Below are positions 7,505 to 12,928 of a DNA stretch of 64,000 bases, piece after piece; position 1 is the first letter of the stretch; every line of letters begins with the position of its first letter. The translations under genes were made by a program, and so were the position numbers. This stretch comes from Streptomyces sp. NBC_00224 (lineage in GTDB: Bacteria > Actinomycetota > Actinomycetes > Streptomycetales > Streptomycetaceae): assembly GCF_041435195.1 (NCBI RefSeq), contig NZ_CP108106.1, positions 4,622,501 through 4,686,500 on the forward strand. The letters run 5' to 3'. The notes under the pieces were generated by a model that was given only the letters and a program-made list of their open reading frames with translations, had not been told where the DNA came from and made no database searches.

Positions 7505-10102
<2,598 letters not shown>

Positions 10103-10161
10103 GTGCGGTCTCTCCTCCTCGGCGTAGGTCCCCACTACATGACTCATCCAGCGTACATAAA

Positions 10162-10216: not shown

Positions 10217-10669
10217 ATGACCACGACCACGGAGCCGGCCGCCGCCCCGGCCACCCGCACCCGTACCCCGCTGGACCCCCGGCAGCCCGATCCGGCCTAC
10301 CTCAGCTTCTGGCGCGAGCGGCACTTGTGCACGCTGACGACCCCGCGCCCGGACGGCAGCCCGCACCTGGTGCCGGTGGGGGTCACCTACGACCCGGAGG
10401 CCGGGATCGCGCGGGTTATCGCCAACAAGTCGAGCAAGAAGGTCGCGAACGTGCGGGCCGCCGGGGCGGAGGGGGCGCGGGTGGCGATCTGCCAGGTGGA
10501 CGGGCGCCGCTGGGCCACTCTTGAGGGCCGGGCGTACGTGGTGACGGAGCCGGGGCCGATCGCCGAGGCGGTGGCGCGGTACGCCGAGCGGTACGGGCGG
10601 GTGCCGCGCGAGAACCCGGACCGGGTGCTGATCGAGATCGTCCTGGAGCGGGCGATGGGCAAGGGCTGA
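10217..10669 (+). CDS. PPOX-class F420-dependent oxidoreductase
   Basis: The 150-residue product carries the split-barrel flavin/F420-binding fold: FWRERHLCTLTTPRPDGSPH, VPVGVTYD, ANKSSKKVANVRAAG, and VAICQVDGRRWATLEG. These match the pyridoxamine-oxidase-like F420-dependent reductases common in actinobacteria, which reduce varied substrates with F420H2. The substrate is unknown. It is divergent from clpB, so its promoter region overlaps the clpB HAIR site and it may respond to heat shock; this is inference. Confidence 0.85.
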   Translation: MTTTTEPAAAPATRTRTPLDPRQPDPAYLSFWRERHLCTLTTPRPDGSPHLVPVGVTYDPEAGIARVIANKSSKKVANVRAAGAEGARVAICQVDGRRWATLEGRAYVVTEPGPIAEAVARYAERYGRVPRENPDRVLIEIVLERAMGKG

Positions 10670-10788: not shown

Positions 10789-11109
10789 TCAGGCGCTGCG
10801 GGGGGTGGCGGTAGATGACTCGGGGTCGAACAGTTCGTGGTCACGCTGATCCAGATTGACGAACACCATGCCGTACCGCACGGCACAGCGAATCGGCTGC
10901 GGCGCCCCTCGTGGCCGGCGGAGGCACCGGTAGGCACGGACGTCCTCGTCGTCCTCGCGAGCGACCAGGATCGGCTCGCCGAACAGGGTGACCATCAACG
11001 AATCGCCACCGTGCGGAATAGCCGTGACGAGGTCGATGAAGTGCCACCCCGAGCGGTAGGCCGTGGCCATCTCGCGCCGGAAGACCCGGTCGTCCGGAGG
11101 GAGGCTCAT
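10789..11109 (-). CDS. Rieske-oxygenase-like small protein lacking cluster ligands
   Basis: The 106-residue product resembles by eye the start of a Rieske non-heme oxygenase: YRSGWHFIDLVTAIPHGGD, then VTLFGEPILVAREDDEDVRAY. At the cluster site it reads CLRRPRGAPQPIRCAVRYGM, so the C-x-H / C-x2-H ligand pairs are absent, and it continues with YGMVFVNLD, the segment that normally follows the cluster. It therefore looks like a Rieske fold with the cluster-binding loops excised and would not be redox active; a binding or scaffold role is possible. Its ATG overlaps the TGA of the repeat peptide (ATGA), so the two are translationally coupled. Confidence 0.6.
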   Translation of the reverse strand: MSLPPDDRVFRREMATAYRSGWHFIDLVTAIPHGGDSLMVTLFGEPILVAREDDEDVRAYRCLRRPRGAPQPIRCAVRYGMVFVNLDQRDHELFDPESSTATPRSA

Positions 11110-11324
11110 GCGCCGACACCCCCGGGCGCGACCTCCCAGGTGGGCTCACCCGGAGAAGCCAGGACCCGCGTCACCGGCTTGTGCTCCCAGGTGGGCTCTC
11201 CCGGAGCCGCTACGGTTCCGTGGGACGGCTTGCTCTCCCACGTGGGTTCCCCACTCGCGGCGAGAGCGCAAAGAGCAGCCGTGACAACGGCTATAGCGCT
11301 GAGTGCTCGAACCATCCTGCTCAT
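11106..11324 (-). CDS. Secreted peptide with three 17-residue GEPTWE repeats
   Basis: The 72-residue product has a signal peptide (basic start, hydrophobic core about 8-22, likely cut after ALAA). Three copies of GEPTWE follow at residues 25, 42 and 59, an exact 17-residue period; the first two continue as GEPTWE-x-K-P. No cysteine follows the signal and no lipobox is visible. GGAG lies seven bases before the ATG; a longer start (MIIKRWRSA...) is possible. It could be a secreted signal, a precursor processed at each repeat, or a cell-surface peptide; I know no family for it. The ATGA overlap links it to the Rieske-like gene, and a LuxR regulator is divergent. Confidence 0.65.
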   Translation of the reverse strand: MSRMVRALSAIAVVTAALCALAASGEPTWESKPSHGTVAAPGEPTWEHKPVTRVLASPGEPTWEVAPGGVGA

Positions 11325-11456
11325 GGCCGATCTCCACCTCTTTATGATCATTCCCTCCCCCCGCGCATAAGACGATGGCTCACTCTGAGCGCTTCCACCA
11401 GCGAGGCCAGGCATCATGTTCCTGTAATTCAGGAGTATGAGGGGGGTGTAATCCGG

Positions 11457-12434
11457 TTGTATCAGGGGCACTTCGGACATAGTCATGGCCCTACAGACCT
11501 GTGCGAGATGGGCAAGACCCTCTACGGCACCGCGTTGCGTACCGGCGGAATAACTCGCACGGAAGCCCAGGCCGCTCCCTGTCTCATCGATCTCGCGCTG
11601 CTGCGGCCCGATGCGGAGGACGCGGAGCAGCTGCGGCCGGTCCCTCCCTCCGTCGTCCTGAACCAGCTCGTGCAGCCGCTCGAACGCGAGATCCAGGAGC
11701 GCAGGAAGCTGTCGATGTCGCTGGCCAGCACCTTCGAGCCATTCATGGCCATCACCAGCGAAGACGCGGCAAGCACCCATGCGATCACGGTCCTTGAGGG
11801 ACTCGAACTCATCAACGCGACGCTGGACCGCGTCATCGACGAGTGCACCAAGGAGCTGCTCACCATCCAGCCCGGCAGCGGGCGCAGACCCGAGACCCTG
11901 GAGTCGGGCCTGCGCCGGGTCCAGCCGCTGCTCGACCGGGGCGTCGACATGCGCACCCTCTATCAGCACACCTCCCGCCACCACTCCGCGACGATCGGAT
12001 ATGTGGAGCGCATCGCGCCGTACGGCCTTGAGGTCCGCACGCTGGAAGAGATCATCGACCGGCTGATCATCGTGGACCGCCGGGTCGCCTTCATCCCCGC
12101 GCGCAGCGACCGCCGGGTCGCGCTCGAACTGCGGCACGAGGGCCTGGTGCAGTATCTGGTCGGCGTCTTCGACCAGTTCTGGCTGCACGCGGTGCCGTGG
12201 GAGGAGGAAGTCCCGTACGCCCAGAAGGCGGAGGGCATCACGGGCGTCCAGCGCTCCATCGCCAAGCTCCTGGTGGAGGGGCACGTGGACGACTCGATCG
12301 CACGCCGGCTCGGTATGAACGTACGTACCTGCCGCGCGCACATCGCCAAGCTGAACGCCGCTCTCGGCAGCGGCAGCCGCGCCCAGCTCGGCTATCTCAT
12401 CGCCCAGTCCGGAATCCTGGAGCAGGACAGTTGA
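11457..12434 (+). CDS. LuxR-type helix-turn-helix regulator (TrmB-like N-terminus)
   Basis: The product is 325 residues from the TTG chosen here. The N-terminal part (ALRTGGITRTEAQAAPCL, LLRPDAEDAEQLRPVPPSVVLNQLVQPLEREI) matches the large family of streptomycete regulators with a TrmB-like region. The C-terminal 60 residues are a LuxR-type helix-turn-helix (DDSIARRLGMNVRTCRAHIAKL). The start is uncertain: TTG at 11457 follows a G-run, ATG at 11508 has no clear ribosome site. It is divergent from the secreted repeat peptide, so peptide and regulator probably form one control unit; a peptide-to-regulator link is inference. The next gene overlaps its stop. Confidence 0.8.
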   Translation: MYQGHFGHSHGPTDLCEMGKTLYGTALRTGGITRTEAQAAPCLIDLALLRPDAEDAEQLRPVPPSVVLNQLVQPLEREIQERRKLSMSLASTFEPFMAITSEDAASTHAITVLEGLELINATLDRVIDECTKELLTIQPGSGRRPETLESGLRRVQPLLDRGVDMRTLYQHTSRHHSATIGYVERIAPYGLEVRTLEEIIDRLIIVDRRVAFIPARSDRRVALELRHEGLVQYLVGVFDQFWLHAVPWEEEVPYAQKAEGITGVQRSIAKLLVEGHVDDSIARRLGMNVRTCRAHIAKLNAALGSGSRAQLGYLIAQSGILEQDS

Positions 12435-12928
12435 ACGCGTTGCCCGACGTCGCACCGGAGGAGCCTGTCGTCGAGTTCGACGCCGACGCGGGCACCGTCA
12501 CGGTCTCCGGTGAGGGCCTTCCCGCCGTCGCGCTGCGCCGCACCGGCGGGAAGGCGAACGACCACACGCCCGTCGGCACCCGCGACGCCGGTCTGCTCAC
12601 GCTGGCCGTGGACGGCGAGCCGGCCCGTATCTCGATCGCCAAGGGGCGCCTGACCCGGCGCTCCTACCGGGTGGACGTCCGCTGCGGCACGGCGAAGTAC
12701 CGGCTGGCGCCCGACTCCATCGCGGGCAGCCGGCTCGTGCGGGACGGGCGGCGGCTCGGCACCCTGATGTGCGACGGGGACGGACGCGTGGAGGCGGACT
12801 GGCACGACGGTGCGAAGGTGCTGCCGCTCGATGTGTCGATGGGGTACGCGCTGGCCGCCGGGTTCGGCACGGGGGCGCAGCCGATGTGGATGACGGCGAC
12901 GGAGATCGTGGCGGACCTGCTGAACTGA
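12431..12928 (+). CDS. Unknown 165-residue protein coupled to the LuxR-type regulator
   Basis: The TTG start overlaps the regulator's TGA (TTGA), with GGAG eight bases before it, so both are probably made from one message. The sequence alternates short beta-strand-like segments (VVEFDADAGTVTVSGEGL, RISIAKGRLTRRSYRVDV, TAKYRLAPDS, RLGTLMCDGDGRVEADWHDG). This resembles all-beta tubby-like/LURP folds, but I could not fix a family. It has no signal peptide. It belongs to the peptide/regulator locus. Confidence 0.65.
   Translation: MNALPDVAPEEPVVEFDADAGTVTVSGEGLPAVALRRTGGKANDHTPVGTRDAGLLTLAVDGEPARISIAKGRLTRRSYRVDVRCGTAKYRLAPDSIAGSRLVRDGRRLGTLMCDGDGRVEADWHDGAKVLPLDVSMGYALAAGFGTGAQPMWMTATEIVADLLN

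Follow-up and report, generated by a model that had tools for sequence, protein, structure and literature searches.

A variable D-x-x-W peptide and a divergent LuxR-type regulator form a candidate signalling module in Streptomyces

A peptide gene and a divergent regulator beside clpB

A stretch of 64,000 nucleotides from Streptomyces sp. NBC_00224 (contig NZ_CP108106.1, positions 4,622,501 to 4,686,500), here called the window, carries beside clpB a small gene for a peptide precursor with three GEPTWE units. Divergent from it lies the gene for a LuxR-type regulator, which we call LUX. The pair recurs across Streptomyces, and we propose that it probably forms a peptide signalling module. A preliminary description, made from the sequence of the window alone, had named a set of four genes, and all were found where it placed them: the peptide gene, a Rieske-like gene (here RSK), the divergent LuxR-type regulator and, coupled to the latter by a TTGA overlap, an open reading frame (ORF) for a beta-rich protein (Table 1). 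The stop codon of the peptide gene does overlap the start of RSK, as ATGA at 11106-11109. The TTG at 11457 is the likeliest start of LUX, this start region being common to its homologues.

Table 1. Features of the locus, in window coordinates
Feature	Position	Strand	Remark
Peptide precursor, 72 aa	11106..11324	-	N-terminus signal-like; [D/E/N]-x-x-W precursor with three GEPTWE units
GEPTWE motif copy 1, residues 25-30	11235..11252	-	
GEPTWE motif copy 2, residues 42-47	11184..11201	-	
GEPTWE motif copy 3, residues 59-64	11133..11150	-	
LUX, 325 aa, TTG start	11457..12434	+	proposed peptide receptor and regulator
Operator-like inverted repeat GTTCCTG-N5-CAGGA	11418..11434	+	intergenic region shared by peptide gene and LUX
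RSK, 106 aa, shortened Rieske-domain relative	10789..11109	-	conserved accessory or output gene (probable)
Beta-rich ORF, 165 aa	12431..12928	+	TTGA overlap with LUX
clpB (chaperone)	7505-10147		adjoins the set; name read from the protein
PNPOx-like gene "PNP"	10217-10669		adjoins the set; name read from the protein

The precursor is conserved and its motif varies between species

In the window peptide the GEPTWE units begin at residues 25, 42 and 59, which bears out the exact 17-residue period first described, and the single Cys sits inside the signal, leaving none after it, as had also been claimed. When the mature part was shuffled 200,000 times, some 6-mer occurred twice in 70 shuffles and three times in none. 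The three copies are written with different codons.

We then considered 133 fetched loci with RSK above 55% identity. At 132 of them a small precursor ORF lies upstream of RSK, with 1 to 12 copies of [D/E/N]-x-x-W and a signal-like N-terminus, the latter called by our own hydrophobicity filter (a heuristic) and not by a trained predictor. At most of these loci the precursor ORF overlaps RSK by a few bases, with ATGA or GTGA at many. The search used the motif itself, so its Trp and first letter are partly given by construction; the position of the precursor ORFs, their shared signal sequences and their repeated copies are not. The peptide is conserved across species. Two details of the preliminary description did not carry over to the homologues. 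Of 315 spacings measured across the 132 loci, only 46 show the 17-residue period, and we rejected it as a functional feature; nor is a count of three copies defining, given the range of 1 to 12.

The two middle letters of the motif agree in 96.2% of 741 pairs of copies within a precursor, versus 7.6% of 8646 pairs between loci. Among 117 distinct LUX genes (some species having been fetched twice) there are 32 distinct four-letter cores, including EPTW, EPSW, DIGW, DSGW, DLAW, DITW, DVGW, DPGW, DSTW and NTSW. Copies that are alike within a precursor and unlike between precursors are what would be expected of a multi-copy product diverging by species.

A few loci depart from the common arrangement. 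The sole exception among the 133, L025 (genome G023), is a second RSK copy (64%) near a contig start; neither LUX nor a DxxW peptide was found in its short fetched flank. At L209 and L210 RSK is strongly diverged (about 40%) and the peptide is still present (QQDPAWD and QQDPTWG); these loci hold four and three LUX-family genes, respectively. At L195, two near-identical small secreted NDSGWG peptides flank one LUX-family gene.

LUX combines a TrmB/PLD-like region with a LuxR-type DNA-binding domain

As read from a predicted model (predicted local distance difference test, pLDDT, 89.4), LUX consists of a winged helix-turn-helix (HTH) at about residues 17-61, a long helix at 64-103, a PLD/TrmB-like domain at about 108-244 and a C-terminal LuxR-type HTH at 263-318. 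The first three elements resemble archaeal TrmBL2 (PDB 5box, E 8e-13). By Foldseek the model matched 5bpi (E 2.7e-13), and the leading matches were TrmBL2 and PLD folds. LUX differs from TrmB and TrmBL2 in its added C-terminal HTH and its paired peptide gene, and TrmB has a sugar-binding domain (title of PDB 2f5t). In a Pfam scan of 116 LUX-family members, the GerE HTH was found in 111 and DUF7436 in 59 (E 0.01 or better); the TrmB models matched 3 and 4. The C-terminal HTH is also what LUX shares with the acyl-homoserine lactone receptors of LuxR/LuxI systems, since CviR and SdiA chains were matched through it. Unlike those receptors, the family showed no autoinducer-binding domain among the 25 Pfam families listed, of 39 in the scan, and the leading model matches lie with TrmBL2 and PLD folds. 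No TPR protein was named among the 50 fold matches listed for the LUX model.

Of the 136 loci fetched, 132 have a LUX homologue, with none of the 80 named loci lacking one, and the best match is divergent from, and upstream of, RSK at 131 of 132. Of the 80 named loci, 30 have between two and four LuxR-family genes within 6 kb. At L207, six are arrayed beside one detected peptide gene; these might be several receptors for one signal or, alternatively, eavesdropping receptors.

Between the peptide and LUX genes, an inverted repeat TTCCTG-N3..8-CAGGA occurs at 93 of 132 loci, and in some relatives it extends up to CATGTTCCTG-N6-CAGGAACATG. This repeat is likely to be an autoregulatory operator.

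The motif follows the regulator more closely than other neighbors

Does the motif follow its regulator? We compared motif distance with gene distance at 80 loci by partial Mantel tests (999 permutations), taking clpB as the species background. Motif and LUX distances were correlated with r 0.58 (p 0.001). The corresponding values were 0.087 for RSK, which overlaps the peptide gene, and 0.093 for PNP (p 0.001 for each); mean divergence was 0.267 for PNP and 0.326 for LUX. With LUX controlled, PNP gave -0.028 (p 0.92) and RSK -0.083 (p 1). On maximum-likelihood trees, the fewest changes needed for letter 2 of the motif were 13 for LUX, 26 for clpB, 28 for PNP and 25 for RSK. Five LUX trees made from 140 random columns gave 12-14 changes, and hence alignment length is not the reason for the low LUX count.

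Extra LuxR copies at the loci, which may not all be orthologous, were compared with the motif in the same way and do not follow it: a tandem copy gave r -0.289 against 0.512 for LUX (n 19), and an opposite-strand copy gave 0.078 against 0.316 (n 13). Of the 25 top co-varying LUX sites, 19 lie in the PLD domain (hypergeometric p 0.005). Among the results listed for independent-pairs tests, supported pairs numbered 2 or 5, or 3 or 6 when all branches are counted. These are too few to separate co-variation from ancestry, and we claim no residue code by which LUX would read the motif.

Two suggestions of the preliminary description gain from these data. Co-variation of motif and LUX supports the divergent regulator as the likely responder to the peptide; and the peptide, kept across species and co-varying with LUX, is probably a processed signal.

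Paralogous regulators also adjoin D-x-x-W peptides

LUX homologues make up a large family, and paralogues of about 24-42% identity are found beside D-x-x-W peptides. By LuxR similarity we found 89 family genes at 88 loci where RSK was not found, and looked for signal-bearing ORFs divergent from them within 700 bp. The mature part contained [D/E/N]..W in 25 of 37 divergent signal ORFs, versus 13 of 96 elsewhere at the same loci (p 2.9e-9); omitting two pairs from the genome of the window, which had prompted the test, leaves 23 of 35. Among residue pairs at gaps of 1-4, D..W was the most over-represented (24 versus 3.5 in shuffles, z 12.8), followed by W-G (z 6.7). Typical peptides end in QDPNWG, GDSSWN, NDPGWG, HDPEWG or DDQWG, and two further ORFs at paralogue loci carry repeats of SINWD and VIGWD. 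Since DxxW peptides stand beside regulators where RSK was not found, the pairing seems to be independent of RSK.

In other families of the same order (28 loci), a W motif was present in 7 of 17 divergent signal ORFs, versus 2 of 41 elsewhere (p 0.0016), and all seven peptides fall in one family. Five of the seven, at L328, L332, L344, L347 and L348, terminate in CxxC, and in three of these the ending is CxxCW; a disulfide-bearing form of the signal is hinted at. Further afield, L275 (G678), in a genome assigned to a different class of the phylum, pairs a close LUX-family gene (E 1e-100) with a divergent peptide ending in YDTGWD, and the pair may have come by transfer or stem from contamination.

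RSK and the beta-rich protein are probably not core parts

With a cut-off of E 1e-3, 335 of 392 sampled genomes have an RSK match, in some cases a weak one; with another member as query, 301 of 392 do so at E 1e-50. Every organism named among the best 120 of 168 protein matches is a Streptomyces. In alignments, RSK corresponds to the N-terminal and Rieske part of the alpha subunits of ring-hydroxylating dioxygenases (GbcA, E 4e-7; PDB 9jp5, E 7e-5). It is unlike them in having only 106 aa, with both the 2Fe-2S ligand pairs and the catalytic domain absent. The CxxH pair is missing from 33 of 33 aligned sequences, and CxH occurs in only 2 of the 33, close to the C-terminal end and not at the Rieske position; 29 of 33 retain the first-loop Cys, its His partner being lost. 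The Pfam Rieske model gave E 0.18, below the cut-off. The RSK model is of moderate quality (pLDDT 74.9), and its leading Foldseek matches have E values of 0.002 and above, none reaching 0.001 or better. Alignment and profile and fold comparison thus confirm a Rieske-like protein that lacks the iron-sulfur ligand pairs.

The idea that this degenerate protein acts on the peptide, by binding or modifying it, fared less well. RSK is well conserved while the peptide varies, it hardly co-varies with it, and it did not turn up in the flanking DNA fetched for 25 further regulator-peptide loci, where no enzyme other than RSK was sought. We therefore rejected RSK as a peptide modifier, and a role in binding the peptide is not supported either. 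As part of the joint explanation given below, RSK is probably an output or accessory gene rather than a maturation enzyme.

The beta-rich ORF has no Pfam or NCBIfam match. Only 18 of the 80 named loci have a homologue within 6 kb, and its distance varies; counted over every locus fetched, the number is 22. This speaks against its place in the proposed unit, and we discarded it as a system partner. We conclude that neither RSK nor the beta-rich protein appears to be a core part.

A peptide ligand and its regulator?

The locus has a precursor, a syntenic divergent regulator, gene-level co-variation between the two and a palindrome between their genes, and further pairs exist elsewhere. We consider it probable, if well short of certain, that precursor peptide and LUX are a ligand-receptor pair, and we infer peptide export, processing, import and binding. 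Sec would export the precursor, and extracellular cleavage would release a short peptide around the D-x-x-W motif (around GEPTWE in the window). This peptide would re-enter the mycelium via an oligopeptide permease and bind the PLD-like domain of LUX, and peptide-bound LUX would then bind the intergenic palindrome and other promoters differently. Multiple motif copies would raise the yield per precursor, and changes in the two middle letters and in the letter after Trp would create species-specific signals matched to the local receptor.

Several results weigh against this model. The correlations of RSK and PNP with the motif are weak and yet not zero. Mantel permutations leave some effect of shared ancestry, and with close relatives in the set the p values are optimistic. 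At the level of residues, co-variation between LUX and motif is inseparable from ancestry. A relaxed form of the palindrome has 20 matches in the genome of the window versus 18 for the control; it is not over-represented, and a regulon drawn from it was given up, none being visible. The paralogue test followed a looser scan that had already shown many of these peptides, and by its filter 63 of the 88 loci without RSK have no divergent DxxW ORF. In G262, the S. coelicolor-group genome discussed below, nine LUX-family members with long matches were found, only two of them with a detectable peptide of their own.

Perhaps the peptide is instead a secreted effector, such as an antimicrobial or surface peptide, that is controlled by LUX while LUX senses something else? 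Small secreted peptides can diversify by competition, divergent regulators are common, and the binding of peptide by LUX is a step that we only infer. However, constraint is confined to four or five residues, which many precursors carry just once, close to or at the C-terminal end, and the motif follows the regulator far better than it follows other neighbors. We regard an effector as unlikely. Linked inheritance, with peptide and LUX travelling together in a recombining cassette and correlated without contact, would also lower the number of motif changes on the LUX tree relative to clpB, and site-level co-variation is unproven. Yet RSK shares this linkage, its gene overlapping that of the peptide, and hardly follows the motif, and D-x-x-W peptides recur beside paralogous regulators of about 24-42% identity. 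Linkage alone is a rather improbable explanation.

The ATGA or GTGA overlap at many loci and the near-constant pairing at the clpB locus would suit a system like those of ribosomally synthesized and post-translationally modified peptides, with the Rieske-like protein modifying or chaperoning the peptide. With the cluster ligands of RSK gone, RSK not found at 25 other regulator-peptide loci and little co-variation, we hold this to be very unlikely. Least credible of all is a leader peptide or attenuator controlling RSK translation, which the translational overlap and a short Trp-bearing ORF might suggest, but which a signal-like N-terminus, an amino-acid repeat kept despite synonymous codon change and the peptides at loci where RSK was not found speak against.

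If peptide and LUX are indeed ligand and receptor, they might stand for a whole class of peptide communication in Streptomyces and relatives. Such a class would comprise hypervariable tetra- and pentapeptides (D-x-x-W-G and kin, with CxxCW in another family of the order), non-TPR cytosolic receptors of TrmB/PLD-LuxR type, species-specific pherotypes, multi-receptor arrays and control of antibiotics. We see this wider claim as evenly balanced.

Relation to known signalling systems

RRNPP regulators have TPR receptor domains. In these systems (Rap, Rgg, NprR, PlcR and PrgX), a small secreted precursor adjoins a cytosolic regulator, as it does here, and the likeness extends to a short imported peptide proposed to bind the regulator and to strain-specific signals; RRNPP systems are described from Gram-positive bacteria and Firmicutes (PMC13220807). 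Here a small precursor stands beside the regulator at 132 of the 133 main loci and 25 of the 88 loci without RSK, with export called by the heuristic. Unlike RRNPP regulators, LUX joins a TrmB/PLD-like part to a LuxR HTH and belongs to Streptomyces and relatives, and its precursors hold up to 12 motif copies. The system would work like RRNPP but, LUX being by its predicted fold not a TPR protein, is not a member.

Gamma-butyrolactones are small molecules with TetR-type receptors and no peptide gene. What resembles our proposal is cell-cell signalling that controls Streptomyces secondary metabolism, as presented in PMC4748050 and PMC13220807. The BldK permease of S. coelicolor was reported long since to import a 655 Da peptide signal, a likeness in that a Streptomyces oligopeptide permease takes up a peptide; a 2022 pangenome paper suggests that strains may use different peptides (PMC9640686). 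We considered whether the BldK signal could be one of ours and make no such claim: a mass of 655 is not reached by any Trp-containing fragment of 4-8 residues, whether from the window peptide or from the two peptides of the S. coelicolor group.

Ever since the BldK work, peptide signals have been suspected in Streptomyces, but in the literature searched no gene family for them is put forward. Nor did the open-licence PMC literature, including PMC5839063 and PMC11303876, describe a system like this one; that body of work leaves out preprints and most papers behind subscription. Most sampled Streptomyces genomes carry the RSK marker (the 301 of 392 at E 1e-50), and 132 of the 133 loci read have a candidate species-specific signal and a candidate receptor.

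A link to actinorhodin production in S. coelicolor

The RSK of genome G262 is identical to that of S. violaceoruber (P0076), with which S. coelicolor presumably belongs. Its locus reads clpB (which we take to be SCO3661), RSK, the peptide (...ATTSDTIWS), LUX (60% identical), a second LuxR gene and a third, of 327 aa (longest start) and 394 aa, respectively. These sizes fit those of SCO3665 (327 aa) and SCO3666 (394 aa), both listed as LuxR family in a table of PMC3282765. Hence, judged by gene order and size, LUX of the S. coelicolor group is SCO3664.

In a report on a transposon screen, insertions in the regulator gene SCO3664 are counted with those that increased actinorhodin more than 50-fold, and SCO2686 and SCO3664 are among eight regulatory down-modulators of actinorhodin; a complementation plasmid for SCO3664 existed, and 16 complementations were attempted in all (PMC6585502). 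The rise upon SCO3664 insertion suggests that LUX, with or without the peptide, restrains antibiotic production there, directly or not.

We examined family membership for these two of the eight down-modulators. Five published oligonucleotides, four matching exactly and one at 19/20, located SCO2686 in L378. It is a 338-aa LUX-family member (39%), and a divergent peptide ending in DDSQWG lies 144 bp away. Two candidate peptides of S. coelicolor thus adjoin regulators listed as actinorhodin down-modulators. If the proposed signalling is real, a synthetic peptide would be a cheap switch for antibiotic production.

The published primer SCO2686-F falls within the divergent peptide ORF (L378:2694-2855 and 2714-2736), so that the complementation clone would carry the peptide gene minus its final codons. 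ArgR sites reported in the literature are located immediately upstream of SCO2686 and inside it.

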